64,000 bases of DNA from Leucocoprinus leucothites (taxonomy: Eukaryota; Basidiomycota; Agaricomycetes; Agaricales; Agaricaceae): the NCBI GenBank assembly GCA_013368445.1, contig JAACJO010000005.1, forward strand, positions 1,178,001-1,242,000. Direction: 5' to 3'. The notes below the pieces were generated by a model that saw only the letters and a list, made by a program, of their open reading frames with translations, made no database searches and was not told where the DNA came from. Below are positions 21,750 to 50,549 of this stretch, piece by piece. Numbering within the stretch: the first letter of the stretch is position 1; every line of letters starts with the position of its first letter. The position numbers and the translations under genes are program-made.

Positions 21750-21791
21750 TGCAACACGTTTGCCCTTTTTCAGCAAGTTGCACATCAAAAA

Positions 21792-27853: not shown

Positions 27854-27931
27854 AGTTTTTGTTTTCGTTGTATCTATTTATAATATGTATTATAACGAAA
27901 GCGACTGTAAAGGGGAAAGTTGCATCAAAGT

Positions 27932-28190
27932 CGGTTACAGGTATATGATCGGTTTGTGTCGTTAGGGCCGGCCTGAGAAATTTCACGTGGTCATGCCCTT
28001 GTGGTGGGAAAAAGCACCACCGGTTACAGGACCATATGACCGGTTAGTATGGTTAGGGCCGGCCTGAGAAAGCTCACGCCTCAAAATCGGCACGTGGCTT
28101 GGCCCAATCCCCACACTCACGGTGAGTCACGCGGCTAGACTCACAGTCACATGGCTGGACCCACCCTCCGGTTCCCAGGATCCTCACGTG
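27932..28190. promoter_or_regulatory. Repeat-rich promoter with three CACGTG sites, outer copy
   Basis: Lies just upstream of the Spt5-like gene and may be bidirectional. Two imperfect direct repeats start CGGTTACAGG at 27,932 and 28,021 and share a GTTAGGGCCGGCCTGAGAAA block. CACGTG palindromes (E-box, bHLH-type site) are at 27,984, 28,091 and 28,185. A second small repeat GTCACRYGGCTRGACYCA lies at about 28,127-28,163. Regulatory function is inferred from position and repetition. Confidence 0.55.
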
Positions 28191-28420
28191 CGGAAAAAAC
28201 CTGCCCTAAATCTTCGAAGCGCTCATATACTGATGCGCATCAATATCACCTCTTTCCTTTCTGTTATCTCCGTCGTAGTATGGTAGTATTGTACTTAGAT
28301 ACCCTCACGTTTGAGTTCATGTGTCACTTGGTGATATACTGCGATTCACCAATTATTCTGGGGCTTCGTTAGCCCTATAATGAACAGTGGGAGAAATGAG
28401 GAATAGAACATGCGACCCTC

Positions 28421-29102
28421 ATGTTGATTGACAGTGAAATATCGTCCGGAAACCAAGCCATAGAATGTCTTGGTAAGATTCGCCTCCCATTCTACAGTGC
28501 GGCGAGTGAAATTTCTAATAATCAAGCACTTGTTAGTGTCGGATATGCTACACTCCTCAAATGCGTCTCGCAGTGCACAGACGACATTACATGGGAACGG
28601 CGCATTCCCAATTACCAAACGCTTCTCATCGTATGCGCCTGCCTTCCCACCCTCAAAAACAATGATCAACACGTCCATGGTGTTTATCGCACAAATCGCA
28701 GGGTGAGACTTGTTTTATCAACGTCATTTATTCAATTAACATGTTCTCCAGATTCAACGTCGTTCTGAGGACGGACGGCACCGCCTTTGCACCGTAACGC
28801 ACAATTCATCTGTGCCGGGCCTGTCGCGTCAAGAATGCGTATCAGGATATACCACTTCCTCAAGAACTCGCCGGCTCAAATCTGGTGCGCCCGCCAGCGC
28901 AACTACAAAACCCACCCTCCTGTTGGCCCACCCACATCTAATAACGGACATTACACTGAGGTCTCTGGGTTTACATTTACTGAGGACCTGGTGGCATCGC
29001 AAGGATCTGAACGGTCATCGTCTGGCCGATTTTAAGCAGTGTTTGTTGCGTGACGGACAATGTCACATTAATCTAGTCTTTCTACGTTCGAGGGTGCGTT
29101 AA
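28421..29102 (+). CDS. Doubtful element gene, outer copy
   Basis: One possible gene: ATG 28,421 to AGG 28,702, a 49-nt intron 28,703-28,751 (GTGAGA..CCAG), then 28,752 to the stop at 29,102, about 210 residues with no recognised domain. The first part has several Cys residues. The opposite strand (28,678-28,346) also reads open with a protein-like MDVLIIVFEGGKAGAYDEKR start and a VIGNAPFPCNVVCALRDAFE stretch, so the true strand is uncertain. It would be divergent from the Spt5-like gene if plus-stranded. I do not recognise either reading. Confidence 0.3.
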
Positions 29103-30058
29103 TAGTTTCAATTATAAGTGATATGAGCTGATGCCGCAAAATATCAGACAGTCGATACAAATTCCAAAATGATTCGGGCGTTCATATTATCAACGAACAC
29201 GCTCTTATCACCTTATTCAACTATGTTACAAGAATAACCCTCCCTGAGGAGCTGTAATTAGCCCAAGTTTGATGGCGGCAAACCCGGCCCTGTATTTTGA
29301 CGCTCTGATACGGATAGTAAGACTCGTCGTTCATAGCATTCTTAGTGAAATGTCTGACGAGGCTAAACACCCTTCAGTACCTAATGTGTCTGATATGTAC
29401 AAGAGCTCTCCTGGGCGTCCGGTTACCGTCCCGCAGTGCGGATTAATTGAATTCTAGCGGTGCTACAAGTGACGCCGAAATGGACAGCGGCTCCCGTACG
29501 TATTTTGTCCTATCTACATTTGATCAGTAGCTGATATTTTTTGAACTAGTTGTACAGTGAACACAAAGGTTTATCAGTGTTCACCCTACACCCTACATCT
29601 TTCTTGGGGACTTTGCAATGCACCTAGAGACGGCACCAGTGAGGCGGCCTAGTACGAATAGTGTGATTCACCTTATATGTCAACGCTGAGCTTTCAAATA
29701 TATGGAAAACCCGCCTCCCTGAACTCAGGTCGCTTTTTTTTGTTGCGCCTTTCCTTTATCTGTGATCCCCGTGCCCAGAACAACTAATTGCAGCCTCTCC
29801 GTAACCTCAAATCCGATCTCCGTGAGTTCACATGGTTTAAGTTCGAATGGTTCGAACCTAATAGAGATACTCCGTGCCCTCTAGGTCTTACATCCACGCA
29901 TATGGTCATAGTTACACCCATTCCCGTGTCCTATTTCTCTCCTGAACTTTAAAATTTTAAACGCCCTCTGCTTTTAAAGGTGATAACCCTCTCTGCCGTT
30001 TTTCACCCCCCCACCCCCCACCCCCCACTCTCATTGCGTTTCCTTAACCCAAACTGTT
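29103..30058. other. Non-coding stretch upstream of the J-domain gene, outer copy
   Basis: AT-rich with short open frames only (for example 29,269-29,457, 62 residues, not recognised). It ends in a C-rich tract with repeated CCCCCCA units at about 30,005-30,028, directly before the start codon at 30,059, which is likely part of the promoter. Confidence 0.4.
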
Positions 30059-33000
30059 ATGTCCCACTTCTTCGTCGATTTGAAAGCTTGCAAAAATCCT
30101 GACTGCGCATGGAAAGGCTCATGCATGCTGTTCAAAGCAGCGTCCATGCAGCCTGACCTCAATTGCGCACTTATGTCCTTGTGCGAATGCGGCTGTCAAG
30201 CCACTCGTCACTATTTGCCTACAACCACTACTCAAGTATGTACCTCGCCTTTGGTTGAGCTGTACGTACTGAACCCCTCTGCTAGCCTCCTGACCCTGCC
30301 CCTCTCGCTCAGGTATGCTATCGCATTTGTTGCTTTTCCCCCTTATTAATCGCTATGTTATTAATCTTTTTAGGGTACGGGTAATGTTTCCCCAAACGCG
30401 ACCCCGTACGGTATCTCGTCTGAAGGCCAGCACTTCGTTCCTGGGAGTCTCGGTGCGGAGTTCCTTCGCTCTATGGGTGAAGGGAGAGGAAGTGCTTCAG
30501 CCTTTCTCCGAACCGACAACATCCGGAAAAAACGCCAGCAACAAGACGGCCTCGCCGACAGCCTCCAATTCGATCCTGGATCAGAGGTAAGACATACCAT
30601 CTTGCATTAAGTCAATATCTGACTCGGAGCAAGATCCACAAGACGGCAGCAGAGAACGCATCGACCACTCGGCTTCCCAAAAACAAAAGACGCAGGAAGG
30701 CTGAGGATACTTCTCGCCCAGCTGCCCCGATAACGACCGCCCCTGCTAAAGCAAAGGAGCCTCTAAGAGTATTCAAGTTCGTTTTGATACCTGAAACCTC
30801 GCTACTGGATAACTTCACTCGTACCGAGCCCACTGCCGATGAGTATGTCGGAGTCACTCTTAATACCTGCCTTACTTACCGTTTTATAGGATCCGAACTA
30901 GCTTGTACACTGCAGGCCTCGTGGTCGACGTGACAATTGACGCCACAGCCACTCACTCGGAAATCAAAGAATCCGTTATCGCTGCTTTCCTTGCCGCGCC
31001 TATCCGTCAAGAAATTCCCATTACCCTGGAGGATTTCTCGATCGTCTCTGCTTCTCCCCAGGGTAAAGGCCAGCGCAGGATACTCAAGCGCATTTTGAAC
31101 TCTAGTGAAGCTGTACTGTCACTGGAATCGATCAAATTGTGAGTTAAATTCGTTTATTCCTTCGCGTTGTCTACTAAATAGGACGTCATGTCTAGTCACA
31201 GTATTACTCACCGCCAGGGCAAGAAAGATATGGGCAAGGTTGTATACGTTGGTCTGTTACGCGGAAAAGCGGATATTGTGATCTCTCAGGAGAATGGAGA
31301 TGGTGGCAACGAAGAGAGTGCTTCAGCTGAAGACAGCGCTAGTGTTGACGAGGATGCACAATCTGACGTCTTGATGGCTGATGAAACGGCTGGTGCGTTC
31401 GTAATAGCTACCATGCTATTGGTTTTAATCGCCGGCATACCTAGACAATAACAAGACTTATGAAGATTTCTTAAACCATTCGCCCTTTGAAGACACCAGC
31501 GCCGACAACTTCAACTCTGGTAACATGAACCTTGAAGATCTTCCCGTTGGTGAAGAATATATTGGGCCAGCATTCGCTCGTACGTAGTAATGTGTCCTAT
31601 TATTTTATCAGACTCAGCGCCCTTGATAGATCCCGATGGATTAGTTGATTATTTACGCTACGATAAACATATACTACCACTGCATTGCTTGACGCGTAAC
31701 ATTTCATGTGAACTTGGGCAAGAAACCTGGGTATGTAGTCGCGCTTTTCCTTATGATGCTGGATTCTCAACTTTTAATCCAGTGGCCCCTGCAAGATTCC
31801 CGCTGTTGGACCGACCTTCACCAGGCTGCCGGTGCAATTCAGACGAAGTTGGAGGCTGTCGAAAAAGAGTCGACTCACAGGTATCTTATCAAGGAGCTCT
31901 ATACAGCACTGAACAGAGCACAGGCATCATTCGACTTTCTCTTCAAGCTCTCGAACATGCGGGTTATAGGGATTGTATCGGATGACGACAAGTATTACAC
32001 TGCGAGTTTCCGAGATACTTTCCGTGTCGGGCCTCACGGTGTCATGCCGTTCATTTCAACTCTTTATCGGGCGCACTGCCATCTCAACTCCTTGCAGGTA
32101 ACCAGCTGGATCAAGAATGAGGTGGAGAACTGTCTTCGCCGCATTGATGCATACGCTTACTGTCTCCTGACTCTGGTTAACGACTTCCGCGAGTTGGAGG
32201 ACAGAGTGAAGTGGGATGTACCTGGTGTTTGTCATCTTCGGCGTTCTACCAACACCCACCCCGACCTTTTTCCAGTAAGTTCTATGCCCCGAATTCCTCA
32301 TTCAATCTTCGGCTTACAAGATCATCAGGTTTCAACAATATCATATTTGGTTCTTCGAGTGCCGCTGAATCACCGCTTGCCTGAGTCCATCATTCAGGAC
32401 CTCCACCATGACTTCGGAAGTGCAACCGAGCACTCGAAGATTGATCCCACCAAGTTATGCTATGGCGAGCTCGGGATTCACGGATTCCTGGACCTTGTAG
32501 CTGATTATCTCGATGCATGCCCCAGCGAAGCTACCTACTACGACGAGGTCAAGGGCATTGTTTCGCGTTTCTGCATGGATCTTTCATACGCAATAGAACG
32601 TCACGCTATTGTAAGCTGTCCCAGCTAAACTATGAACATGATCTAACCTACATGCTTCTAGATAGATGCTCAGACAAAAGGGAAGGGCCGCCGCAAGTAT
32701 GAAACGAGAAGCTCTACAGTCAAGGATAGGGACAGGTGTCGTGCATTTTTCAACCGAGGTAACAGTACATTACTTACAAATTGAACTCAGCTCTCCTGAC
32801 ATTGAGGAATTAGAGCCAGGTCAGTGCCACCTATTGCTATCGTTTGCCGCCTGCTGACTCATGTCACAGATGAAGCTACTCGCAACGTATTCGAACGTAA
32901 GTAATATTCAATCTCAGTAGTTGAACTGTCATTAATTCTCTTGAAAGACAAAGACAAGCAACGGAGGTCGAACGCCAATGCCAATAGCAGTAATTGCAGG

Positions 33001-33538
33001 GCTGATCCTTCCTCCAGCACGACGAACGCTTCCACACATTTTACGAATAGCTCCTCATCCACTGGCACGAGTGCAGGCTCCAATACTTCCACAGGCTCGA
33101 GTGACGGTGGTTCGGCTGGTGCCTCAACTAGTTCCCCAACTGGTGCCTCTACTGGACCGGGCTCAGCTCCATCTGCGACCTCAACCCCACGTGTAAAGGT
33201 AAAAAATCTCTCTACATGTAACACACTCGATGAACTAGCACAACGAGTCGTTACTTACATCAAGCACCCTGATCCCGAAAAGCGGCTTCCTTCCTGGAAC
33301 TTAATGCAGGGTGTTACGAGGGAATTGAAATGGCGCAAGCTATTCTTAGTAAGCTTCCAATCCTCTACTTCTCTTGATCTTTTATCTGATGATACCTCAG
33401 ACATATCACCCCGACAAAAACAGTATCGGGCTCCCAAATTCAGATGGCAGTACTCCTAGTGTATACACGGAAGCTTGGTTGGTGACGTGCGTTTATGTCA
33501 CTGGTCACTTAAACCGAATACGGAAATCCGAGGTGTAG
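30059..33538 (+). CDS. Cys-rich N-terminus / J-domain-like C-terminus protein, outer copy
   Basis: Fourteen exons (30,059-30,235; 30,374-30,586; 30,634-30,842; 30,890-31,138; 31,202-31,392; 31,445-31,579; 31,612-31,730; 31,783-32,274; 32,329-32,610; 32,662-32,735; 32,791-32,819; 32,870-32,896; 32,948-33,348; 33,401-33,538) sum to 2,736 nt, 911 residues, with consistent phases. The N-terminus is a likely zinc-binding patch (C11, C16, C22, C36, C42, C44, C46, H51). A basic KNKRRRK patch and an acidic Ser-rich region follow, then a long helical-looking middle, then a Ser/Thr/Gly-rich linker. The end has KWRKLFLTYHPDKN, where HPD (869-871) after a basic helix resembles helix II and the HPD loop of DnaJ J-domains. 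Function unknown; a co-chaperone-like role is inference. Confidence 0.78.
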
Positions 33539-34070
33539 TTTATTCTCGGTCGAGGGATAGTGTAATGATTGGATTACAAACACGCGTCGAATCTCACCAC
33601 TATGCTATATTGACTAAATATTTTCATCTGCGACTTATATCTCTTGTTACCTTGATGTTTCATGCTTTAGTGTCTATGTGACAAGCTGTGTATTCTAGTG
33701 TCAACTAATAGTGTACAGTCCGTTTCCCTCTAATACTTTTTTCACCATTATTGCTGTCTATTCTCCTCATAGTACTTTTCTCGCTATTATTACTGTCTAT
33801 TCCCCTCTAATACTTCCCCCTCTCTGAGCTATATTACAATTTATTTTACGGTATTCAGTCATATATGCCCTATGCTGTTTTTCATTTCTGAGGTGTACAG
33901 AAAAAGTTGAAAGGGAGGCTTAGCATACATAGGGGCCGTGCCTATGCCTCTGCATTCTGAGTGCCATTTTTGGCATTGTTCTAGAGGATACGAGTGCGTC
34001 TCCCCTGTTTCCAATTTAGTAAGTAGCATTTCAATAATGAGATGAAAAATCTGGTCACTTACTCCCCACC
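33539..34070. other. Intergenic, J-domain gene to transposase gene, outer copy
   Basis: About 530 bp. It contains an irregular tandem pattern around 33,715-33,830 (TCTAATACTTTT / CATTATTGCTGTCTATTC-type units, about 50 bp, three times with drift). It should hold the terminator of one gene and the promoter of the next. Confidence 0.45.
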
Positions 34071-35110
34071 ATGCCCACTGAGCCTTATGATGGCGATCGA
34101 GTCTCCAACTTTCTGCGGCTGTCTGATAAAATCGTTCAAGAGGCCCAACACCTCATTGTAACAATACCTAATGTTGAGATATTCGCTGTCGAGAGGTCAC
34201 TTAGGCTTCTCAATACCGTGAATCAAGTCTTACAGCAAATTTCGGACCAATGGATTTCTCCAGTGGAGGTGGAGTTTCTTTCGGGTGTCGTTCAAGGCCT
34301 AATACACCCGCTCCAGCATTTTTTGGAAGTCACGGACCCAAATGAACGACCTCAAGCGCAGACGGCTCCTCCTGGCCCAGGTCGTGGTCGACCAAGGGTT
34401 ATAATCGATATTCAACGCGCTATTCATCTTCATGACCTCGGAAACTCATGGGAGTCAGTTGCAGAGGCCATAGGTGTTGCGAGAAAAACACTGTACCTTC
34501 ACCTAGCCCGAGCTGGCATTTCCTCCGCTCGCCCCACACATACAGAGATCACAGATGAAGGATTAGATGAAGTCGTAGCCGGAATCTCTCTTCTACACCC
34601 ACAGAATGGTGCAGGAATTATTCACGGTGCCTTGAAGTCCCTAGAAATTCTTGTACCAATCAAACGTGTAAAAGAGAGTCTTAGGCGTGTAGATCCTATT
34701 GGTATCATGCTTCGGTGAGTCATTTTTGCTCAACGTTCCGACACCCAGTTGAATAAACATATTTAGATGGCATGGAGCAATCAAACGCCGTGTGTATCGT
34801 GTTCGAGGTAGCAATGCCCTATGGCATATGGATGGAAATGAGAAGCTGAAGCCTTGGGGGTTTTATATACATGGCTGCGTGGATGGACACTCTCGTCTGC
34901 TCATCTACCTGCAGTGCCGTGACAATAAACGCGCTCTAACAGTAGAGAAGATCTTCATGCGTGGAGTCTCACAATACGGCTGGCCTAGTAGAGTTCGTGG
35001 AGATTATGGTACCGAAAATAATGCCATCGAAGTTAGAATGGTCTTGAAGTGGGGAGAGCACCACAAAGCCTACATTCGAGGACGGTATGTGTCTACCTAA
35101 TCAATACTGT

Positions 35111-35116
35111 ATGTTG
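35111..35116. repeat. Inner target-site duplication, left copy (ATGTTG)
   Basis: ATGTTG precedes the inner element and is repeated at 49,526-49,531. The empty site is visible at 48,508-48,513 within the inner copy, where ATGTTG occurs only once between the same neighbours. Confidence 0.95.
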
Positions 35117-35146
35117 TATGGGCGAAATACTGTGTAAAAAATAAAA
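35117..35146 (+). repeat. Terminal inverted repeat, inner copy, left
   Basis: Same 30 bp as the outer left terminus (TATGGGCGAAATACTGTG...). It pairs with 49,496-49,525. Confidence 0.95.
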
Positions 35147-35188
35147 TGCAACACGTTTGCCCTTTTTCAGCAAGTTGCACATCAAAAA

Positions 35189-35339
35189 TTTGACATCTAC
35201 ATAAAATTGCACACCTTTCTGTCACAAGTTTGACAAGTTCCAAATTTGACACCTTCTGTATTTTGACATCTCGTGAATAAAAATTTCGCATCTTGCTTCT
35301 CTGACCACTCGAATTCTCACAAGTTGACGAATTTTCGCA
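35189..35339 (+). repeat. Left subterminal motif array, inner copy
   Basis: Same array as at 21,792-21,942: four TTTGACA and two TTTCGCA, all plus strand. Confidence 0.8.
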
Positions 35340-37795
35340 AGTTAATTTAGTGCCGCACGGCCATCATTAGTTCTGCTGGCTAAGCGGCATGTCCTCGATG
35401 CCGGTTGACTGCCGAGGATGAACTCCGGTGCTAGCTGCTACTCATCGGGTTAACCTCCGGGGATCTGATGGGACCCGCTTCTAAATATGATCAAAAAACC
35501 TTTTTGTAGACAAGTAGTAGTGAGTACTTCAATAACTCCATAGGAGAATCGCTATATTGAAGATACTTGAGAGATAATGCTCTGGCTGATAGATCAAACA
35601 AAGAAGGTGGTAATGGTCAGATAAAAGTATTAAGCTTGAGCTGGAACAACAACTCAACATGAACACAACGGTATTAAGCGTTGTGAGCTCGAACCGAACT
35701 TCATTACCAATGCTGCTAGAAAATATGTTCCCCAAGTTAGTGAGTCTTGCCTTCTCCGTTTAACAAACGTTGTATGGCCCAAAGCGCATGGTAAGGTCAC
35801 TATACCTGAAAAAATGGGCCTTGGGGCTTTGAGTTTTAGTGGGTAGCCAAATATTTGGCGTTAGACTCCCATACGCCTATTGGGGGGCGCATTTCCCCAA
35901 GGGCAGAGACATGGAATCAAACTAAACTAATACTCACGCGTAAGCCGACTGAATAAGCCGACTCTCCGCCAAGTGGATTTGACGAAGGCTGATTGTCATT
36001 CGTGACTCCCCAGCCTCAGAGCCAACTTCAAGTGGTATGTGGCACCTATAATGCCTCCTTCGCGATGCTTCCCAACACGAAACAGACCCAACATCCTCCT
36101 CCAAGCATGCCCTAACCTTGTCCACAATGTATCTTCTGTCGTTCTAGCCTACAAAGTCTTCTGCTCTCCAGAAAGACAATGCGATCGGATTGTCCAGGTC
36201 TCTAGACTTTGGACGTTCGCTAACCTTCTGTAAAAATGTATTCCATGCACTCTCGCTGATTCTCGCCGCCAAGCAAGCCTCTTTGATCAGCATCATTTCT
36301 GTCTTCTCTGACTCTTTCTCCTCTGCTTTTTAAATTCGCTAACTTGATCCGTTGAACTCCAACTCGTCTCTGCCTTTATTTTTTTGAACAAACCTCATAC
36401 ACCCCACTCAATAATTCATACACGCTTTGCCCACTCACTCGCACATCGGGCTCCCTCCGCTGCCCGCCCCCGAGCGTGGTGGCGGCCTTAAAACCCCCTC
36501 TCATCCCAATCATCTTCCAGGTCGCCTTCCATCAGATCTCCTTCTACTCAAATCAATATACCTTCTACTTCAATTTCTTCTCTCTCGAGCAGCCCCCTTC
36601 TCTCGGGATTAGAAAGACGCACCATCTGTAGGCCCCGACTTCCACTGTATTCCTTAGAAGTATGCCAATGCTCGTAAATTAGATACTTACCGATATGTAT
36701 ATGAGGGACTGTATGTAAGCTACTTCCGAATGCACGTTGAGTTCATAGTATCCATCGTGTCCCCTAACGCCGACATTCCACCACCACCCTGAGACAACTC
36801 AAAGAAACAACTGACCATAGGGCGAGTCGGCCAGTTGAATATATCATGATATTTTTGTCATTGGGTTGGACCAGCTAACGCTCACAGATCATGTCATTAA
36901 GACACTCAGCGGGATCTGGCGTCCCTAAGATAGTATCCCCTCTGCTGTCCTTGGCAGCCCTCAAGAACACCTCTCCAACAGTTTCCCTCCCATCCTCGTT
37001 GCCATCTAGCTGCAGGAATGACGTCTGTACCATTGTACTCATCAAGGGCTTTGTACATAGAGTTGCTCTTTGTGATGGAACTCGAGAAAGAGTACCTCCA
37101 ACGGAGGATTTGTGGCCCCAAGACTGCCAGCGTTCCTTTGTCCTCGGACCTTACCTCAACCATCTGCATTACCGAACATCCGCCGGCAAGATGCCCCATT
37201 GAGCATGGACAAGAAACAACTCTGAGCGCCCAAGCGACACTCGTCTCCAAGAGATATGTCGCTTTCCCCGATATCTACCCTAGTTTCACCTCTCCTCTGC
37301 ACTCGCCAAGGTTTCTTCGTTGCACTCATCCTCACGTCAAAACTCACGTGGAATAATACTTCTCAAACTGTGCCCGAGCCAAGGCTTCTAGTCTTCCAGC
37401 CAGGGAAACCAATCGCTTTGAGCGTGCTCTTGGTGAAGCCCTCGACCGCTCTCTCGCCCATTAGATTCCGCTAGTTACCCCTTTTCAGGTGTGATGGGAT
37501 CCCTATCAAATCCTTCATCTCAGTCGCCAAGTTTGCTATCGACTGGATCTCCTTCACCTACTCAAACCGGATTCCACCATTGCCAGACATCACAGCTGGG
37601 GAGGGAGGGAGTCATAAGAGAGAGAAAGCACGTGAATATTAAACTAATGGGTTCGGTGATACTACTTCGAGTCCTGTCTCCTGTTATGTACTTTGAATAA
37701 GAATAGTGTCTTTGCGTGCAAGATTATAGAAGTGGTATTAAGATAGTATGATGACGGGGTATGAATATGAAGGGGTATATCGTGAAGTCCTCTAC
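35340..37795. other. Left arm of inner element, no confident gene
   Basis: Identical in content to 21,943-24,398: hairpin, CT-rich tract and coding-like scraps at 36,891-37,640. Confidence 0.4.
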
Positions 37796-40700
37796 TTAAT
37801 TTGTTACGCCGAGATCGTCCTTTCGAATCCGCTTTAGAACCTTATATTTATGTCCTCCACGAACTGCGCCCAGGCCACAAGTATCCCCAAACTCATTCAC
37901 CCAGTGTCGACTCCCGAAATCTGAACCGCGCATGACATAGACGAAGCACCCCTTTTTAGTCGGGGGAACCCAGGACACCAAACCGTGGGGTATCACCCCG
38001 GTCTGGCCCTGCGCTCCGGGCGACGATGGTTGAAAGTATATTCTGACCATGTTGTCTGAAACCCCCTTGAATACTCCAGTCTTACCGTGCCACGGGGCGG
38101 CATCGAGGCGAAGAGGATTCTCCGTGACCTTCAACATCAGGCTCGAGTTTTTTGGAAGGATATCAGATATCCGTAGGAGCCAGTGGTCGTGCGCTACAGT
38201 TCTGAGCAGCCATTGATTGTGATTGAGATGACACTTACGGATGACCCCTCCTATGTTTACTGGTGCTGGCTCTGCTTGCTGAGTGGCTGGAGCCCAGACT
38301 CCGTCGGTCTCGGTGTTGATCGGCTCAGGAGTCCTCCCTCTAGCTGTCGAACCTGAGGCCTCAGGCCTCAGCACCCGCCGCTCCAGTTCGGATTTCACGT
38401 GCTCGGTGGGCACAAGCTCGAAGTCTGACTCCTCAGTAACCTCGTATAATCTCTCGTCATTGTCCCTGTATTCAACTTAGACTCACATCGATCACAATGA
38501 ACTGAGCGTGCTTACAGGAAGAAATATAAACCTTTGAGATGACGCTGGACAAGCTGGTTTCGATTGACAAGCACACCTTCAACTTCCACGTGTGCTATCC
38601 ACTGAGTGCTAACGGTCCTGATGATGCCTTGGTATGCCCTGAACGGTTCGCTCTTGAACATAACGCGCATTTTAAGAAATTTGTCGCGTTTCTGATTCTC
38701 GCTGCGAACAATAATGTCTTCAAACATTTTATGAATTCTGCGGGCTTTCTCATTCGCATGGGAAGCGCTCTGTCCTTCTGGTTGAGGAGCCGCTTCCTGA
38801 GGCTTCACGAAGACGCGATCGTCTTCTGCAAACTCTACATCATTTATCGAGGCAAAGACCTCGGAGACCTACTCTTCATATATAAGTAACCGAACCGGGG
38901 AATGGCCACAACACGTACCTGTCGCATTCGAACAGAGATAGCGACCGTATGAGCCTCGTCGTTCACAGCGGTCACAAAGCCTTGGGCACCCGCATGCTCA
39001 CCGGACCTGACGCGGACGTGATCACCTATCTGAAAGTGCCGTCGGAGCGAGGATTTTGCCACCTCAATGATTTCATTAGAGGCCGTAACGGTGACCCGTG
39101 CGTAGGTCAAGAAGACCTGCTCTACGAATCCCACCATTCCTCGATAGTCTCCTTCAGTCAGCTTTACCTGGTCGCCTCTCTTCAGGTCCTCAAGCTCTGC
39201 CGTCTCCAGCGCCAGACTCTTAGCTAAATCAGGAATCGAGGGGCAATCCATGAATTCCATGATTTCTTCGCGAGAAAGATGGACAGCACGTGGGCGGTAT
39301 GAGCCATGGACCAATTCTGCCAACAGATAGCCACCAGCGTCGAATTTCATAAAACCCTTTTGATTCTCGTCTTGATTCTCGATCTCCTGGTCTTCGTCTT
39401 CATCCTCCGCGTCCTTTTCTTCTTCTCCTCGCGCTCCCTCTTGAGCTTGCTCTCCTACTGATGTACTCCCTTCTTCCACTCGTGCTCCACTTTCCTCTTC
39501 TCGCTGTCGCTCTTCTCTTTGATCTCTAAGTCGTGCTCGTCCTTCTTCTCCATCCGCATGTATCCGTCCTTCTCCTTCCTGTCCTCCTTCTTTTGAGGGG
39601 CCCTCCTCTCCACGTTCTATAGCCGTATGCTGAAACGGATATTCAACTGGGATCTTCCTCCACCTTCTGGGGACTTTGAATCTTGAATTGTAGCATTCAA
39701 TCTCATCAGTGTCGGCACTCCGCTTTACTGTCAGAAAAGAGTCTCCATATATAGCGCGGCATCGGTCAGGGTTGAGCCGTGCAGCAGGAGCACGTTCTGA
39801 GCGAGCCTGCCCGCGTTTTCGTTTGCGCGTGGAATAAGGAAGTCTCGCGAGGAGCACGGCGACCACACTAAACCTCTGCGAGTCGACTTGATTGACTTCA
39901 AGGACGTAGGCAGGGTCGTCCTTATACGGAGCGGATGATAAGCGGATCCAGGTATTGCTCTTTGGAACCTCCACAGGCTTTTCACGTTCTATCAAGTATT
40001 GCTTGGCGGTTTCAACATAAACGTAGCGGATCTTTTGCGTATTGAGCCCGCTGCATACGAATGTCGCGTCCTCAATCTTCTTGACTTGAACAAAAACTCG
40101 GCCAGGTAGGGAAGACCGATAGAAGGCGGCATGTGGAGGTTCGTGCAAACCGCAGAAACCGGATTCAATTCGTCTCAGGATTCGGTCCACAGTTTTTTGT
40201 TCCTTTCCTACCTGGAATACCGTCAGATTGTATCCGCAGATATAAAACATAATGATATTTACTTGGACCGGAACCTCCCAGAGCGGGCAATCCCAACGTA
40301 CATTAGCCTCGGCGTCGTCCTTAGCGTCTTCCTCAGTGTCGGCCTTAGCGTCTTCCCCAGCGTCGGCTTGAACGTCTTTATACACATGCCTCCTCATTAT
40401 CCCTTCAATCACTGGGTTGTCTTCGTCTTCATTTCGGTTCAACCGGGGAGCAGGATGCACGAGGTTCTCTTGAGCCTCAGAGTTGTCGATAAAGTTGGCT
40501 GGAACAATTCATGAATGCCTTGAATACACGTATTTTATTATTTCTAAGAAGTCTACCTTGATCGGCCTCTGTCTCGTCTTCGCTCTCTTCCTCGTCATTG
40601 ACCTGTGCCTCTATATCCAAGAAGGCATGCACGGCGTCCGTTCGAACCTTCTTTCTTGCCCTTGAATGGTGCGGCTGTTTAGGAGTACTCTTCCGCGCTT

Positions 40701-41250
40701 GGGGTGCCGTCTGAACCTCCTAGAAGGCATAGTTAACTCAAGTAGATGTAGTACAATCATATCTACCTCGGTATTCCCGCTGAATCCTACCGACATTGGA
40801 TTTGGCTCGTCGGGGTCGTATACCCAAGTAATTTCGTGAGATTCTTTGAGCGTGCCGTCGGCGTTGACCGCCTCACCGTCCTGTATATTCTTTTTGTCAA
40901 TACGTTGGTCATCTGGTAGCGTTTTGGTGGTACAAACTAAAGGGTGGTTCTACAACGGAAGATGAGATTCAGCCGTCATTCATGTATGGTGAACATACCG
41001 TTGACGCTGTTACGGGCGCCGCTGGTATCGGTGTGGATTCATCTGGGTCGTAAACCCACTCGATCTCGTGTGCGTCCTTGAGTGTACCGTCAGCATTGAC
41101 AGCCTCACCTTCCTGCACTTCGGCTGTCAATGGCATTCAGTCCGGTGACACCTTGTACGAACCGGGTTTCGGTGCTGTAGAACTTATATTAGCTTTTGAT
41201 ATTATAGATATCGTCCTACATACGTTCGTTGAGTATCTATTGTCTGACAT
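37796..41250 (-). CDS. Spt5-like NGN/KOW protein, inner copy
   Basis: Identical translation to the gene at 24,399-27,853. Spliced exons lie at 41,123-40,999, 40,949-40,767, 40,719-40,557, 40,498-40,263, 40,211-38,919, 38,868-38,516, 38,465-38,239 and 38,193-37,796. Spt5 family members bind RNA polymerase through the NGN domain and nucleic acid or partners through KOW domains. Host Spt5 is a single essential gene, so an element-borne version is unusual. The N-terminal double WVYDPDE repeat and the long Arg/Glu-rich linker are not part of normal Spt5. The start near 41,250 is tentative. Confidence 0.82.
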
Positions 41251-41328
41251 AGTTTTTGTTTTCGTTGTATCTATTTATAATATGTATTATAACGAAAGCG
41301 ACTGTAAAGGGGAAAGTTGCATCAAAGT

Positions 41329-41587
41329 CGGTTACAGGTATATGATCGGTTTGTGTCGTTAGGGCCGGCCTGAGAAATTTCACGTGGTCATGCCCTTGTG
41401 GTGGGAAAAAGCACCACCGGTTACAGGACCATATGACCGGTTAGTATGGTTAGGGCCGGCCTGAGAAAGCTCACGCCTCAAAATCGGCACGTGGCTTGGC
41501 CCAATCCCCACACTCACGGTGAGTCACGCGGCTAGACTCACAGTCACATGGCTGGACCCACCCTCCGGTTCCCAGGATCCTCACGTG
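41329..41587. promoter_or_regulatory. Repeat-rich promoter with three CACGTG sites, inner copy
   Basis: Same as 27,932-28,190: two CGGTTACAGG...GGGCCGGCCTGAGAAA repeats and CACGTG at 41,381, 41,488 and 41,582. Confidence 0.55.
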
Positions 41588-41817
41588 CGGAAAAAACCTG
41601 CCCTAAATCTTCGAAGCGCTCATATACTGATGCGCATCAATATCACCTCTTTCCTTTCTGTTATCTCCGTCGTAGTATGGTAGTATTGTACTTAGATACC
41701 CTCACGTTTGAGTTCATGTGTCACTTGGTGATATACTGCGATTCACCAATTATTCTGGGGCTTCGTTAGCCCTATAATGAACAGTGGGAGAAATGAGGAA
41801 TAGAACATGCGACCCTC

Positions 41818-42499
41818 ATGTTGATTGACAGTGAAATATCGTCCGGAAACCAAGCCATAGAATGTCTTGGTAAGATTCGCCTCCCATTCTACAGTGCGGC
41901 GAGTGAAATTTCTAATAATCAAGCACTTGTTAGTGTCGGATATGCTACACTCCTCAAATGCGTCTCGCAGTGCACAGACGACATTACATGGGAACGGCGC
42001 ATTCCCAATTACCAAACGCTTCTCATCGTATGCGCCTGCCTTCCCACCCTCAAAAACAATGATCAACACGTCCATGGTGTTTATCGCACAAATCGCAGGG
42101 TGAGACTTGTTTTATCAACGTCATTTATTCAATTAACATGTTCTCCAGATTCAACGTCGTTCTGAGGACGGACGGCACCGCCTTTGCACCGTAACGCACA
42201 ATTCATCTGTGCCGGGCCTGTCGCGTCAAGAATGCGTATCAGGATATACCACTTCCTCAAGAACTCGCCGGCTCAAATCTGGTGCGCCCGCCAGCGCAAC
42301 TACAAAACCCACCCTCCTGTTGGCCCACCCACATCTAATAACGGACATTACACTGAGGTCTCTGGGTTTACATTTACTGAGGACCTGGTGGCATCGCAAG
42401 GATCTGAACGGTCATCGTCTGGCCGATTTTAAGCAGTGTTTGTTGCGTGACGGACAATGTCACATTAATCTAGTCTTTCTACGTTCGAGGGTGCGTTAA
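41818..42499 (+). CDS. Doubtful element gene, inner copy
   Basis: Same as 28,421-29,102. Exons 41,818-42,099 and 42,149-42,499. The competing minus-strand reading is at 42,075-41,743. Not recognised. Confidence 0.3.
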
Positions 42500-43455
42500 T
42501 AGTTTCAATTATAAGTGATATGAGCTGATGCCGCAAAATATCAGACAGTCGATACAAATTCCAAAATGATTCGGGCGTTCATATTATCAACGAACACGCT
42601 CTTATCACCTTATTCAACTATGTTACAAGAATAACCCTCCCTGAGGAGCTGTAATTAGCCCAAGTTTGATGGCGGCAAACCCGGCCCTGTATTTTGACGC
42701 TCTGATACGGATAGTAAGACTCGTCGTTCATAGCATTCTTAGTGAAATGTCTGACGAGGCTAAACACCCTTCAGTACCTAATGTGTCTGATATGTACAAG
42801 AGCTCTCCTGGGCGTCCGGTTACCGTCCCGCAGTGCGGATTAATTGAATTCTAGCGGTGCTACAAGTGACGCCGAAATGGACAGCGGCTCCCGTACGTAT
42901 TTTGTCCTATCTACATTTGATCAGTAGCTGATATTTTTTGAACTAGTTGTACAGTGAACACAAAGGTTTATCAGTGTTCACCCTACACCCTACATCTTTC
43001 TTGGGGACTTTGCAATGCACCTAGAGACGGCACCAGTGAGGCGGCCTAGTACGAATAGTGTGATTCACCTTATATGTCAACGCTGAGCTTTCAAATATAT
43101 GGAAAACCCGCCTCCCTGAACTCAGGTCGCTTTTTTTTGTTGCGCCTTTCCTTTATCTGTGATCCCCGTGCCCAGAACAACTAATTGCAGCCTCTCCGTA
43201 ACCTCAAATCCGATCTCCGTGAGTTCACATGGTTTAAGTTCGAATGGTTCGAACCTAATAGAGATACTCCGTGCCCTCTAGGTCTTACATCCACGCATAT
43301 GGTCATAGTTACACCCATTCCCGTGTCCTATTTCTCTCCTGAACTTTAAAATTTTAAACGCCCTCTGCTTTTAAAGGTGATAACCCTCTCTGCCGTTTTT
43401 CACCCCCCCACCCCCCACCCCCCACTCTCATTGCGTTTCCTTAACCCAAACTGTT
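42500..43455. other. Non-coding stretch upstream of the J-domain gene, inner copy
   Basis: Same as 29,103-30,058, with the C-rich tract at about 43,402-43,425 before the start codon. Confidence 0.4.
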
Positions 43456-46400
43456 ATGTCCCACTTCTTCGTCGATTTGAAAGCTTGCAAAAATCCTGAC
43501 TGCGCATGGAAAGGCTCATGCATGCTGTTCAAAGCAGCGTCCATGCAGCCTGACCTCAATTGCGCACTTATGTCCTTGTGCGAATGCGGCTGTCAAGCCA
43601 CTCGTCACTATTTGCCTACAACCACTACTCAAGTATGTACCTCGCCTTTGGTTGAGCTGTACGTACTGAACCCCTCTGCTAGCCTCCTGACCCTGCCCCT
43701 CTCGCTCAGGTATGCTATCGCATTTGTTGCTTTTCCCCCTTATTAATCGCTATGTTATTAATCTTTTTAGGGTACGGGTAATGTTTCCCCAAACGCGACC
43801 CCGTACGGTATCTCGTCTGAAGGCCAGCACTTCGTTCCTGGGAGTCTCGGTGCGGAGTTCCTTCGCTCTATGGGTGAAGGGAGAGGAAGTGCTTCAGCCT
43901 TTCTCCGAACCGACAACATCCGGAAAAAACGCCAGCAACAAGACGGCCTCGCCGACAGCCTCCAATTCGATCCTGGATCAGAGGTAAGACATACCATCTT
44001 GCATTAAGTCAATATCTGACTCGGAGCAAGATCCACAAGACGGCAGCAGAGAACGCATCGACCACTCGGCTTCCCAAAAACAAAAGACGCAGGAAGGCTG
44101 AGGATACTTCTCGCCCAGCTGCCCCGATAACGACCGCCCCTGCTAAAGCAAAGGAGCCTCTAAGAGTATTCAAGTTCGTTTTGATACCTGAAACCTCGCT
44201 ACTGGATAACTTCACTCGTACCGAGCCCACTGCCGATGAGTATGTCGGAGTCACTCTTAATACCTGCCTTACTTACCGTTTTATAGGATCCGAACTAGCT
44301 TGTACACTGCAGGCCTCGTGGTCGACGTGACAATTGACGCCACAGCCACTCACTCGGAAATCAAAGAATCCGTTATCGCTGCTTTCCTTGCCGCGCCTAT
44401 CCGTCAAGAAATTCCCATTACCCTGGAGGATTTCTCGATCGTCTCTGCTTCTCCCCAGGGTAAAGGCCAGCGCAGGATACTCAAGCGCATTTTGAACTCT
44501 AGTGAAGCTGTACTGTCACTGGAATCGATCAAATTGTGAGTTAAATTCGTTTATTCCTTCGCGTTGTCTACTAAATAGGACGTCATGTCTAGTCACAGTA
44601 TTACTCACCGCCAGGGCAAGAAAGATATGGGCAAGGTTGTATACGTTGGTCTGTTACGCGGAAAAGCGGATATTGTGATCTCTCAGGAGAATGGAGATGG
44701 TGGCAACGAAGAGAGTGCTTCAGCTGAAGACAGCGCTAGTGTTGACGAGGATGCACAATCTGACGTCTTGATGGCTGATGAAACGGCTGGTGCGTTCGTA
44801 ATAGCTACCATGCTATTGGTTTTAATCGCCGGCATACCTAGACAATAACAAGACTTATGAAGATTTCTTAAACCATTCGCCCTTTGAAGACACCAGCGCC
44901 GACAACTTCAACTCTGGTAACATGAACCTTGAAGATCTTCCCGTTGGTGAAGAATATATTGGGCCAGCATTCGCTCGTACGTAGTAATGTGTCCTATTAT
45001 TTTATCAGACTCAGCGCCCTTGATAGATCCCGATGGATTAGTTGATTATTTACGCTACGATAAACATATACTACCACTGCATTGCTTGACGCGTAACATT
45101 TCATGTGAACTTGGGCAAGAAACCTGGGTATGTAGTCGCGCTTTTCCTTATGATGCTGGATTCTCAACTTTTAATCCAGTGGCCCCTGCAAGATTCCCGC
45201 TGTTGGACCGACCTTCACCAGGCTGCCGGTGCAATTCAGACGAAGTTGGAGGCTGTCGAAAAAGAGTCGACTCACAGGTATCTTATCAAGGAGCTCTATA
45301 CAGCACTGAACAGAGCACAGGCATCATTCGACTTTCTCTTCAAGCTCTCGAACATGCGGGTTATAGGGATTGTATCGGATGACGACAAGTATTACACTGC
45401 GAGTTTCCGAGATACTTTCCGTGTCGGGCCTCACGGTGTCATGCCGTTCATTTCAACTCTTTATCGGGCGCACTGCCATCTCAACTCCTTGCAGGTAACC
45501 AGCTGGATCAAGAATGAGGTGGAGAACTGTCTTCGCCGCATTGATGCATACGCTTACTGTCTCCTGACTCTGGTTAACGACTTCCGCGAGTTGGAGGACA
45601 GAGTGAAGTGGGATGTACCTGGTGTTTGTCATCTTCGGCGTTCTACCAACACCCACCCCGACCTTTTTCCAGTAAGTTCTATGCCCCGAATTCCTCATTC
45701 AATCTTCGGCTTACAAGATCATCAGGTTTCAACAATATCATATTTGGTTCTTCGAGTGCCGCTGAATCACCGCTTGCCTGAGTCCATCATTCAGGACCTC
45801 CACCATGACTTCGGAAGTGCAACCGAGCACTCGAAGATTGATCCCACCAAGTTATGCTATGGCGAGCTCGGGATTCACGGATTCCTGGACCTTGTAGCTG
45901 ATTATCTCGATGCATGCCCCAGCGAAGCTACCTACTACGACGAGGTCAAGGGCATTGTTTCGCGTTTCTGCATGGATCTTTCATACGCAATAGAACGTCA
46001 CGCTATTGTAAGCTGTCCCAGCTAAACTATGAACATGATCTAACCTACATGCTTCTAGATAGATGCTCAGACAAAAGGGAAGGGCCGCCGCAAGTATGAA
46101 ACGAGAAGCTCTACAGTCAAGGATAGGGACAGGTGTCGTGCATTTTTCAACCGAGGTAACAGTACATTACTTACAAATTGAACTCAGCTCTCCTGACATT
46201 GAGGAATTAGAGCCAGGTCAGTGCCACCTATTGCTATCGTTTGCCGCCTGCTGACTCATGTCACAGATGAAGCTACTCGCAACGTATTCGAACGTAAGTA
46301 ATATTCAATCTCAGTAGTTGAACTGTCATTAATTCTCTTGAAAGACAAAGACAAGCAACGGAGGTCGAACGCCAATGCCAATAGCAGTAATTGCAGGGCT

Positions 46401-46935
46401 GATCCTTCCTCCAGCACGACGAACGCTTCCACACATTTTACGAATAGCTCCTCATCCACTGGCACGAGTGCAGGCTCCAATACTTCCACAGGCTCGAGTG
46501 ACGGTGGTTCGGCTGGTGCCTCAACTAGTTCCCCAACTGGTGCCTCTACTGGACCGGGCTCAGCTCCATCTGCGACCTCAACCCCACGTGTAAAGGTAAA
46601 AAATCTCTCTACATGTAACACACTCGATGAACTAGCACAACGAGTCGTTACTTACATCAAGCACCCTGATCCCGAAAAGCGGCTTCCTTCCTGGAACTTA
46701 ATGCAGGGTGTTACGAGGGAATTGAAATGGCGCAAGCTATTCTTAGTAAGCTTCCAATCCTCTACTTCTCTTGATCTTTTATCTGATGATACCTCAGACA
46801 TATCACCCCGACAAAAACAGTATCGGGCTCCCAAATTCAGATGGCAGTACTCCTAGTGTATACACGGAAGCTTGGTTGGTGACGTGCGTTTATGTCACTG
46901 GTCACTTAAACCGAATACGGAAATCCGAGGTGTAG
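43456..46935 (+). CDS. Cys-rich N-terminus / J-domain-like C-terminus protein, inner copy
   Basis: Identical to the 911-residue protein at 30,059-33,538 (add 13,397 to each exon border). Lies between the Spt5-like gene (-) and the transposase gene (+), transcribed with the latter but with its own upstream region of about 0.95 kb. The N-terminal Cys/His cluster could bind metal and nucleic acid or protein. The terminal KWRKLFLTYHPDKN block keeps the HPD tripeptide needed to stimulate Hsp70 in true J-proteins. The rest of a J-domain (helix III with its usual KFQ.I.EAY pattern) is not evident, so the domain may be partial or only similar. Confidence 0.78.
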
Positions 46936-47467
46936 TTTATTCTCGGTCGAGGGATAGTGTAATGATTGGATTACAAACACGCGTCGAATCTCACCACTAT
47001 GCTATATTGACTAAATATTTTCATCTGCGACTTATATCTCTTGTTACCTTGATGTTTCATGCTTTAGTGTCTATGTGACAAGCTGTGTATTCTAGTGTCA
47101 ACTAATAGTGTACAGTCCGTTTCCCTCTAATACTTTTTTCACCATTATTGCTGTCTATTCTCCTCATAGTACTTTTCTCGCTATTATTACTGTCTATTCC
47201 CCTCTAATACTTCCCCCTCTCTGAGCTATATTACAATTTATTTTACGGTATTCAGTCATATATGCCCTATGCTGTTTTTCATTTCTGAGGTGTACAGAAA
47301 AAGTTGAAAGGGAGGCTTAGCATACATAGGGGCCGTGCCTATGCCTCTGCATTCTGAGTGCCATTTTTGGCATTGTTCTAGAGGATACGAGTGCGTCTCC
47401 CCTGTTTCCAATTTAGTAAGTAGCATTTCAATAATGAGATGAAAAATCTGGTCACTTACTCCCCACC
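46936..47467. other. Intergenic, J-domain gene to transposase gene, inner copy
   Basis: Same as 33,539-34,070; contains the drifting repeat of about 50 bp at 47,112-47,227 and the presumed transposase promoter. Confidence 0.45.
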
Positions 47468-49081
47468 ATGCCCACTGAGCCTTATGATGGCGATCGAGTC
47501 TCCAACTTTCTGCGGCTGTCTGATAAAATCGTTCAAGAGGCCCAACACCTCATTGTAACAATACCTAATGTTGAGATATTCGCTGTCGAGAGGTCACTTA
47601 GGCTTCTCAATACCGTGAATCAAGTCTTACAGCAAATTTCGGACCAATGGATTTCTCCAGTGGAGGTGGAGTTTCTTTCGGGTGTCGTTCAAGGCCTAAT
47701 ACACCCGCTCCAGCATTTTTTGGAAGTCACGGACCCAAATGAACGACCTCAAGCGCAGACGGCTCCTCCTGGCCCAGGTCGTGGTCGACCAAGGGTTATA
47801 ATCGATATTCAACGCGCTATTCATCTTCATGACCTCGGAAACTCATGGGAGTCAGTTGCAGAGGCCATAGGTGTTGCGAGAAAAACACTGTACCTTCACC
47901 TAGCCCGAGCTGGCATTTCCTCCGCTCGCCCCACACATACAGAGATCACAGATGAAGGATTAGATGAAGTCGTAGCCGGAATCTCTCTTCTACACCCACA
48001 GAATGGTGCAGGAATTATTCACGGTGCCTTGAAGTCCCTAGAAATTCTTGTACCAATCAAACGTGTAAAAGAGAGTCTTAGGCGTGTAGATCCTATTGGT
48101 ATCATGCTTCGGTGAGTCATTTTTGCTCAACGTTCCGACACCCAGTTGAATAAACATATTTAGATGGCATGGAGCAATCAAACGCCGTGTGTATCGTGTT
48201 CGAGGTAGCAATGCCCTATGGCATATGGATGGAAATGAGAAGCTGAAGCCTTGGGGGTTTTATATACATGGCTGCGTGGATGGACACTCTCGTCTGCTCA
48301 TCTACCTGCAGTGCCGTGACAATAAACGCGCTCTAACAGTAGAGAAGATCTTCATGCGTGGAGTCTCACAATACGGCTGGCCTAGTAGAGTTCGTGGAGA
48401 TTATGGTACCGAAAATAATGCCATCGAAGTTAGAATGGTCTTGAAGTGGGGAGAGCACCACAAAGCCTACATTCGAGGACGGTATGTGTCTACCTAATCA
48501 ATACTGTATGTTGTCTAAGTCATAACTCTAGCTCTGTACACAACGTCCGTATCGAGCGTACATGGAGGGATGTTCGCACCGGAGTTATTGAGTTCTGGAG
48601 GACGATTTTTCTTCATCTAGAAGAGATCGGCATGCTAGACATGGACAATGCTGCACATCGTGTATGTCTTTTTATTGTCTTCCAGCCCCGTATTCAGCGC
48701 TGGCTCGATCGCTTTATTCAGTTTTGGAACCACCACTCAATCCGTACTGCCAAGAATAAAAGTCCACTTGCGATCTACGAGCTAAGCAAGGAACGTGCCA
48801 TCAACCTTGGATTTTGGAATAATGATCCGGGAGATGGAGTTGAAGAAATAGACCCATTCTACGGCTTCGACGGCCAGGAACAACAACCGACACCTGAAGA
48901 GCTTCTCCAAGAGGATGAGCAGCGACAAAATGAGAGGGACAGAGATGACGGGCCAGCACTGGCGGAGGCCAGAAAGGTGTTGAGTAACTTACCTGTTCAC
49001 ATGGATGACGGCAACAACGGTATCAACTGGTATTGTCAAGCTCTTTTCACCCTCGAGACATACTTGAACGCTCTAGCATAG
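47468..49081 (+). CDS. Integrase-type DDE transposase, intact
   Basis: Three exons (47,468-48,111; 48,164-48,481; 48,532-49,081) give 503 residues. The N-terminal 100 residues are helical. GRGRPRV then leads into a helix-turn-helix-like segment (about 112-150, SWESVAEAIGVARKTLYLHL). The catalytic core has D237 in ALWHMDGNEK, D294 in RVRGDYGTEN and E329 in SVHNVRIERTW. Spacing is D-56-D-34-E, the retroviral-integrase pattern. A CVDGHSRLLIYL strand and RIQRWLDRFIQFWNHHSIR helices fit the integrase-core family I know from fungal and animal genomes. The C-terminus is Glu/Gln-rich. No mutation is seen. It should cut and join the element ends and give the 6-bp duplications. The start ATG follows ACTCCCCACC; no upstream in-frame extension looks coding. 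Confidence 0.9.
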
Positions 49082-49495
49082 TTTTTTTGGAATATATTTA
49101 TTAAATGGGAGAATTTCAGTGGGATTTAAGATTTGCTATTTGGAGTATATACTACGCCAAAAGTCCACCTCTCCTTTTTCGCTGCCGAGATGAGGAAATG
49201 ATAATAATCACCGGTATTCCGGTGCACCGGTGCTATCAAACATGCCGCTCGGCAGGATTGTCTGCTGGCCTGGCTGCCGGCAAGAGTTCGGCAGCCTTTC
49301 ACTGCGTTACCATTTGTGGAACATGCGAAAAAGTCAAGGGTGTCAAAAGAGTAAGGTGTTAAAATTTAGATGTCAAATTACAACATGTCAAAACTACTAG
49401 GTGCGCTTTTACGTCAACATGTCAAAATCTGAGTACATGCGAAATTCTAACGTGCTCTACTTTGCAAGTTGTCAAAATTTGAGTTGCGTTTTCCC
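49082..49495. repeat. Right subterminal region, inner copy: hairpins and motif array
   Basis: Inverted repeats cluster here: CACCGG-TATT-CCGGTG (49,209-49,224), palindrome GCACCGGTGC (49,224-49,233) and GGCTGCCG (49,272-49,279) / CGGCAGCC (49,289-49,296). From 49,324 to 49,476 lie five TGTCAAA and two TGCGAAA motifs, the mirror image of the left array. An 85-residue open frame at 49,105-49,362 overlaps these structures and is probably not a gene. Confidence 0.75.
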
Positions 49496-49525
49496 TTTTA
49501 TTTTTTACACAGTATTTCTTCCATA
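49496..49525 (-). repeat. Terminal inverted repeat, inner copy, right
   Basis: Reverse complement starts TATGGAAGAAATACTGTG; 28/30 match with the left repeat. Confidence 0.95.
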
Positions 49526-49531
49526 ATGTTG
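49526..49531. repeat. Inner target-site duplication, right copy (ATGTTG)
   Basis: Follows CTTCCATA directly and is followed by TCTAAGTCATAACTCTAG, the rest of intron 2 of the outer transposase gene. Confidence 0.95.
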
Positions 49532-50099
49532 TCTAAGTCATAACTCTAGCTCTGTACACAACGTCCGTATCGAGCGTACATGGAGGGATGTTCGCACCGG
49601 AGTTATTGAGTTCTGGAGGACGATTTTTCTTCATCTAGAAGAGATCGGCATGCTAGACATGGACAATGCTGCACATCGTGTATGTCTTTTTATTGTCTTC
49701 CAGCCCCGTATTCAGCGCTGGCTCGATCGCTTTATTCAGTTTTGGAACCACCACTCAATCCGTACTGCCAAGAATAAAAGTCCACTTGCGATCTACGAGC
49801 TAAGCAAGGAACGTGCCATCAACCTTGGATTTTGGAATAATGATCCGGGAGATGGAGTTGAAGAAATAGACCCATTCTACGGCTTCGACGGCCAGGAACA
49901 ACAACCGACACCTGAAGAGCTTCTCCAAGAGGATGAGCAGCGACAAAATGAGAGGGACAGAGATGACGGGCCAGCACTGGCGGAGGCCAGAAAGGTGTTG
50001 AGTAACTTACCTGTTCACATGGATGACGGCAACAACGGTATCAACTGGTATTGTCAAGCTCTTTTCACCCTCGAGACATACTTGAACGCTCTAGCATAG

Positions 50100-50513
50100 T
50101 TTTTTTGGAATATATTTATTAAATGGGAGAATTTCAGTGGGATTTAAGATTTGCTATTTGGAGTATATACTACGCCAAAAGTCCACCTCTCCTTTTTCGC
50201 TGCCGAGATGAGGAAATGATAATAATCACCGGTATTCCGGTGCACCGGTGCTATCAAACATGCCGCTCGGCAGGATTGTCTGCTGGCCTGGCTGCCGGCA
50301 AGAGTTCGGCAGCCTTTCACTGCGTTACCATTTGTGGAACATGCGAAAAAGTCAAGGGTGTCAAAAGAGTAAGGTGTTAAAATTTAGATGTCAAATTACA
50401 ACATGTCAAAACTACTAGGTGCGCTTTTACGTCAACATGTCAAAATCTGAGTACATGCGAAATTCTAACGTGCTCTACTTTGCAAGTTGTCAAAATTTGA
50501 GTTGCGTTTTCCC
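50100..50513. repeat. Right subterminal region, outer copy: hairpins and motif array
   Basis: Same as 49,082-49,495. TGTCAAA at 50,359, 50,389, 50,404, 50,438 and 50,488; TGCGAAA at 50,342 and 50,456. Confidence 0.75.
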
Positions 50514-50543
50514 TTTTATTTTTTACACAGTATTTCTTCCATA
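50514..50543 (-). repeat. Terminal inverted repeat, outer copy, right
   Basis: Mirror of 21,720-21,749 with two mismatches; ends CTTCCATA. Confidence 0.93.
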
Positions 50544-50549
50544 TACATA
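50544..50549. repeat. Outer target-site duplication, right copy (TACATA)
   Basis: Matches 21,714-21,719. Confidence 0.9.

Follow-up and report, generated by a model that had tools for sequence, protein, structure and literature searches.

In the basidiomycete Leucocoprinus leucothites, a 64,000-nucleotide stretch of contig JAACJO010000005.1 (assembly GCA_013368445.1, positions 1,178,001 to 1,242,000, forward strand; hereafter the window) contains a 14,409-bp transposable element that codes for an integrase-type transposase, a protein resembling the elongation factor Spt5 and a cysteine-rich protein with an HPD motif (the Cys/HPD protein), and that is inserted in an identical copy of itself. 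Judged by its ends, its target-site duplication (TSD) and the type of its transposase, rather than by a tree, the element fits the IS3EU/GingerRoot superfamily. This superfamily is already known; the element stands out by its cargo, and particularly by the Spt5-like gene, relatives of which stand beside KDZ transposases. The features of the locus, in window positions and with terminal inverted repeats abbreviated as TIRs, are the following:

35117..49525, plus strand: inner IS3EU-type element, complete, 14,409 bp (from its TIRs, TSD and further genome copies)
35111..35116, no strand: left TSD of the inner element, ATGTTG
49526..49531, no strand: right TSD of the inner element, ATGTTG
35117..35155, no strand: left TIR
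49487..49525, no strand: right TIR
37796..41250, minus strand: Spt5-like gene, about 1,000 amino acids (aa), 5' end uncertain; exons 37796-38465, 38516-38868, 38919-40211, 40263-40498, 40557-40719, 40767-40949 and 40999-~41120, then small 5' exons
43456..46935, plus strand: gene for the Cys/HPD protein, 905 aa, 13-14 exons
47468-48111, 48164-48481 and 48532-49081, plus strand: exons of the IS3EU-type transposase, 503 aa, with a helix-turn-helix (HTH)-like N-terminus, an rva_4 core and D237/D294/E329
21720..50543, plus strand: outer element, the same as the inner one, which interrupts it (from blastn of the window against itself and from the flanks)
21714-21719 and 50544-50549: TSD of the outer element, TACATA
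24399..27853, minus strand: Spt5-like gene of the outer copy (13,397-bp offset, tblastn)
30059..33538, plus strand: Cys/HPD gene of the outer copy (13,397-bp offset, tblastn)
34071..50099, plus strand: transposase gene of the outer copy, with the inner element in intron 2

The inner element starts and ends with TIRs of 39 nt, 87% complementary to each other, whose outer limits are exactly 35117 and 49525 (TATGG..CCATA). Their outermost 30 nt agree at 28 of 30 positions, whereas the best counterpart of this 30-mer anywhere else in the window, once other element ends are excluded, agrees at 17 of 30. The original prediction, made from the letters of the window, had given these repeats as 30 bp and the duplication as 6 bp, and both features were borne out, the repeats at a length of 39 nt. 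What it had overlooked is the nesting of the element in its own identical copy: blastn of the window against itself aligns 21720-35117 with 35117-48514 (13,398 bp, 100% identity) and 49526-50543 with 48508-49525 (1,018 bp, 100% identity), the inner copy being offset from the outer one by 13,397 bp. From these blocks and the position of intron 48482-48531 (inner coordinates) it follows that the inner element lies within intron 2 of the outer transposase gene. The flanks of the outer element are long open frames resembling host genes. The identity of the nested copies suggests that the self-insertion, and with it the activity of the element, is very recent.

Exon 2 of the transposase gene matches the Pfam family rva_4 (PF24764) at 2.1e-33, while its matches to rve (PF00665) and HTH_7 both lie below the Pfam cut-offs. 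The predicted D-56-D-34-E arrangement was recovered as D237, D294 and E329, and these residues do not vary across 11 aligned rows, made up of the transposase and 10 relatives picked from its homologue matches. A total of 146 proteins matched, with PF24764 in all 120 listed; the named homologues among the matches listed come from Agaricomycetes, other fungi and animals. By eye, no cysteine precedes the integrase core in our model, which thus is without an HHCC zinc motif. The superfamily has been described as having TA..TA ends and usually 6-bp TSDs, with IS3EU and GingerRoot united at 99% bootstrap (Kojima 2023, PMC10045372, excerpts), and for fungal IS3EU elements 6-bp TSDs, TIRs of more than 30 bp and TAYGG..CCRTA ends have been given for Pucciniales families (Kojima 2025, PMC12730594, excerpts). 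The described ends, TIR length and TSD length, together with a DDE core and an HTH-like N-terminus, recur in the element, which also resembles fungal members of the superfamily in bearing extra genes. Every TET+ IS3EU family of PMC12730594 carries TET/JBP and alpha-kinase genes, whereas here the Spt5-like and Cys/HPD genes take their place. Another IS3EU-related fungal TIR element, Styx of Zymoseptoria, is reported to have four coding sequences and to have been recently active (PMC10853768, excerpts); compared by description, it is likewise a multi-gene, recently active element, but for two of the four coding sequences no genus other than Zymoseptoria is reported.

Polintons (Mavericks) are also large and combine an integrase-type transposase with 6-bp TSDs. 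In contrast to these, the ends and the Pfam family of the element fit IS3EU, and, in agreement with what had been predicted, Pfam scans of the three gene products and of 10 further stop-to-stop frames gave no match to PolB, packaging ATPase, protease or capsid. The ten frames, of 91-143 aa, had no Pfam match above cut-off; one match stood at E 0.05. Nor was there any KDZ or CxC2 match within the element.

In the Spt5-like protein three KOW families exceed the Pfam cut-off (6e-8 to 7e-10), and 12 distinct PDB sequences named as Spt5 or its Spt4 partner match at E <=0.0027, mostly in the KOW region. Part of the protein can be aligned collinearly with Spt5 chains of solved structure. It has the architecture of Spt5, namely an acidic N-terminus, an NGN domain and several KOW domains, the KOW part being significant and the NGN part a weak match, so that the predicted KOW/NGN gene holds firmly as regards KOW and less so as regards NGN. 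An acidic FLDxEAxV motif is weakly matched (1.9 bits) in a second Spt5 chain and is present in the host gene too.

The Cys/HPD protein had been given as 911 aa with a J-like character; our model has 905 aa, and the HPD motif is read only once the canonical 52-nt intron 46746-46797 is spliced out. The NCBI model of the protein in the copy at C6 (contigs are cited by such labels) has 933 aa and keeps this intron unspliced. In the relative at C10 the splice sites are kept and the sequence reads YHPDKNS, with a different stretch preceding it. The HPD part of the prediction thus stood, while the Pfam DnaJ match, at E 0.12, is below cut-off, and we would hesitantly call the product J-like rather than a J protein. 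Its homologues, among 7,987 candidates scored, form a single cluster from the same species.

We then examined the further copies in the 47.0-Mb assembly. A 25-mer of the left end, allowed up to 2 mismatches, matched at 13 places against 0 for the reversed pattern used as a control, counts that are lower bounds. Perfect 6-bp TSDs flank five of the six two-ended copies: the inner and outer copies of the window, those at C6 and C15, and a 77-bp miniature inverted-repeat transposable element (MITE) with the element's ends at C5:966041 (TSD CAGGGG). At the sixth, the outer relative at C10, no 6-bp TSD was found at the flanks. C79, though two-ended, was not counted because the contig is misjoined. 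The C6 copy has 14,407 bp, 99.99% identity and the TSD CGTTTA; the C15 copy, with 97.9% identity and the TSD TAATAC, is split by a 10.7-kb insert. This insert (C15:437190-447858) has identical 173-bp end repeats, a 5-bp duplication and long open frames, and resembles a long terminal repeat (LTR) retrotransposon. At C90 the flank of the C15 copy is repeated and the copy stops at the contig edge, ahead of the transposase gene; given the identical flank, we rejected it as a separate insertion. The C10 relative, whose main pieces have 69-79% nucleotide identity, apparently lies within a shorter relative. On its left side (C10:195100-201500) near-identical stretches about 6 kb apart may represent another LTR element. 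In C79, a partly unpolished contig, the left part corresponds to the outer copy of the window, from which its first 5,088 bp depart at just 6 mismatched positions but at 240 gap bases, and the right part is the flank of the C6 copy. We therefore rejected two independent insertions at one intron site, in C79 and the window, in favor of an unpolished misjoin.

Leaving aside the fragments at C12 and C46 and the MITE, all three genes occur together in both window copies and at C6, C15, C79 and C10. By tblastn, the Cys/HPD gene is confined to copies of the element (73 pieces on C5, with two copies, C6, C15, C90, C79 and C10) and was found nowhere else in the genome. The Spt5-like gene (46 of 92 candidates scored) occurs in those copies at 54-99% identity per piece, and has distant paralogues elsewhere at 23-36%. 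The rva_4 core is found in copies of the element and at a single further locus, on C49. The expected co-occurrence of the three genes accordingly holds within the family of this element and fails for rva_4 loci at large, as C49 and the TET+ IS3EU families illustrate.

Relative to the window copy, 236 of the 254 substitutions in the C15 copy (C15:447859-461704) are C>T or G>A, and 219 of those 236 fall at CpG, where only 22% of C and G lie; the bias is weaker in the C10 relative (589 of 1,275, with 248 of them at CpG). Such a scar points to CpG methylation followed by deamination as having probably acted on the C15 copy, and hence to a family that is probably methylated. The single TET/JBP match in the genome is below cut-off and outside the element.

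Among the distant paralogues of the Spt5-like gene, those read at C55, C22 and C1 each lie upstream of, and on the same strand as, CxC2 and KDZ frames. Across the genome, 13 of 16 CxC2 (KDZ-associated) loci are preceded, at a distance of 2.2-6.0 kb, by a KOW paralogue of the same strand; some of these loci (C1 and C82 score equally) may represent duplicated contigs, or a single element recently copied. Random placement in 20,000 trials averaged 0.06 such loci and never exceeded 2, against the 13 observed, under a model that ignores the clustering of transposons. Counting by the KDZ domain instead, 12 of 19 loci have a same-strand KOW paralogue no more than 8 kb away, and from the other direction 13 of the 21 distant KOW loci have a CxC2 locus nearby. 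From position and orientation we infer that the Spt5-like gene is carried by KDZ elements. The CxC2 loci and our element thus have the NGN-KOW gene in common, but their transposases are unrelated; Kyakuja of Laccaria is reported to have a 7-bp TSD and no TIR (PMC12730594, excerpts). By eye, an N-terminal motif, GEAVNxDGTLKE..ITW..DPDD, is common to the genes of the element, C22 and C55, and is at most decayed in that of C1, so that it is present in two of the three read; the 2.4 kb read from the host Spt5 gene did not show it. The element's protein scores 84-89 bits in the KOW region plus 47-76 bits in the NGN region against four paralogues, versus 41 bits against a 1.2-kb fragment of the host Spt5 gene at C14. 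One distant KOW locus, at C18, adjoins by eye a Ty3/gypsy-like frame, with no KDZ match nearby.

Taking these observations together, we consider it probable that the locus represents a large IS3EU/GingerRoot DNA transposon, very recently active and probably autonomous, that carries a transposon-specialized Spt5 paralogue aiding its transcription. As expected from the superfamily, the transposase would bind the TIRs, with the helix-turn-helix at its N-terminus as the probable contact, and move the element by DDE chemistry with 6-bp staggered insertions, presumably in a cut-and-paste manner. The Spt5-like protein, as a paralogue specialized for transposons, would associate with RNA polymerase II, and our best guess is that it helps the transcription of long, intron-rich, methylation-targeted transposon genes, thereby countering silencing. 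For the Cys/HPD protein, the motif faintly hints at a co-chaperone-like role. The occurrence of Spt5-like genes beside KDZ transposases suggests an accessory module that may have been exchanged between transposon lineages, as reported for the TET/JBP genes.

Several points weigh against this proposal. The NGN stretch of the element's protein reaches only 6.9 bits against the best Spt5 chain, and that of two of the three KDZ-side paralogues about 17 bits in Pfam; the DnaJ match of the Cys/HPD protein is weak as noted, and AlphaFold models of both cargo proteins are unusable (mean predicted local distance difference test scores of 28.8 and 36.4). The association with KDZ elements is incomplete: three of the 16 CxC2 loci, those with the weakest CxC2 matches, are without a KOW gene; seven of the 19 KDZ-domain loci (C2, C49, two on C34, C30, C20 and C60) have no KOW paralogue within 8 kb; and eight of the 21 distant KOW loci lie away from any CxC2 locus, namely C83 and C52 at contig edges, C18, two on C22, C34, C100 and C3. 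Of the four paralogues on the KDZ side, three match the C14 fragment of host Spt5 with 76-93 bits, so that their similarity to the element does not clearly exceed that to the host, which gives no backing to a single origin of the transposon-borne copies. A 7-row Spt5 tree with a long host branch does not give the direction of transfer, and its labels 'IS3EU_like_Lbirn' (an L. birnbaumii gene) and 'KDZ_C18' are our own and no evidence of context. At C49:69620-70204, the rva_4 core gene outside the copies of the element belongs to a different lineage; neither cargo gene was found there, and the 10 kb read contain no clear pair of TIRs. Finally, all the genomic evidence comes from one genome.

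The two cargo genes might instead be passengers, that is, host genes captured by chance and without a role for the element, and the other genes carried by TET+ IS3EU families lend this some plausibility. Comparison with the C10 relative, about 0.5 dS apart, speaks to the contrary: the Spt5-like gene, over 958 codons, has a ratio of nonsynonymous to synonymous substitution (dN/dS) of 0.31, the Cys/HPD gene, over 896 codons, one of 0.33, and the transposase, over 497 codons, one of 0.12, leaving out gapped codons and the stop codons of C10 (5, 4 and 6, respectively). As the C10 copy is decayed, these ratios should if anything be pushed upward, and they show purifying selection on the genes. Together with the restriction of the Cys/HPD gene to the element, and with an Spt5-like gene that resembles the KDZ-side genes more closely than it does the host fragment, this makes mere passengers unlikely. 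A further possibility is that the Spt5-like protein acts in transposition rather than transcription, for instance as a tether that holds the integration complex on transcribed chromatin. Spt5 proteins ride on the transcribing polymerase, and the outer element sits between host-like open frames and the inner one in an intron, as such a tether might produce. However, these insertions are too few to establish a target preference, and, the KDZ transposase being unrelated, one and the same tether would need to work for two different transposases; we accordingly give this alternative little credence.

The original prediction had raised the possibility of an undescribed class of large integrase-type DNA transposons. 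A 14.4-kb element with such a gene set is indeed unusual, and literature searches for KOW with IS3EU, Kyakuja, KDZ or Agaricomycete transposases, or for Spt5 with fungal transposons, found nothing relevant in the papers covered, although a PNAS article of 2014 that deals with KDZ and TET/JBP might mention it. KOW and Spt5 are absent from the text of PMC12730594; in excerpts of PMC4455052, PMC9765290 and PMC12477816 'kow' occurs only inside species or author names, the sole joint hit with IS3EU being a Repbase paper in which it belongs to a species name; the text of PMC12810828 has no 'kow', and PMC13289920 (excerpts) does not mention transposons. Nevertheless, the duplication length, ends and transposase type, as all testable features of the superfamily, match IS3EU, published families of which already bear extra genes, and we rejected a new class as very improbable. 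IS3EU/GingerRoot has been in Repbase since 2013. That the self-nesting is an artefact is scarcely credible: the C79 misjoin does imply that repeats of this family confused the assembly, but misassembly would hardly create a junction at which the TIR ends are exact and the ATGTTG duplication is perfect, and the left side of this junction recurs in C79.

Returning to the proposed Spt5 paralogue, we put forward more tentatively, and with real doubt, the broader idea that mushroom DNA transposons from two or more unrelated superfamilies, IS3EU and KDZ, encode their own Spt5 paralogues as dedicated anti-silencing elongation factors, passed between superfamilies as the TET/JBP genes are. A parallel is offered by plasmids, whose NusG paralogues of the RfaH kind have been proposed to express long transfer operons (PMC7593976, excerpts); these too are mobile elements with their own NusG/Spt5-family factor, but bacterial ones, and beyond that family the likeness is one of analogy. 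The identical nested copies, in suggesting very recent activity, point to a system open to study in a living host. If the proposal is true, transcription elongation would join DNA demethylation by TET/JBP among the host processes for which fungal transposons seem to have equipped themselves, and a universal elongation factor as the cargo of unrelated transposons would make the silencing of transposons at the elongation step testable.

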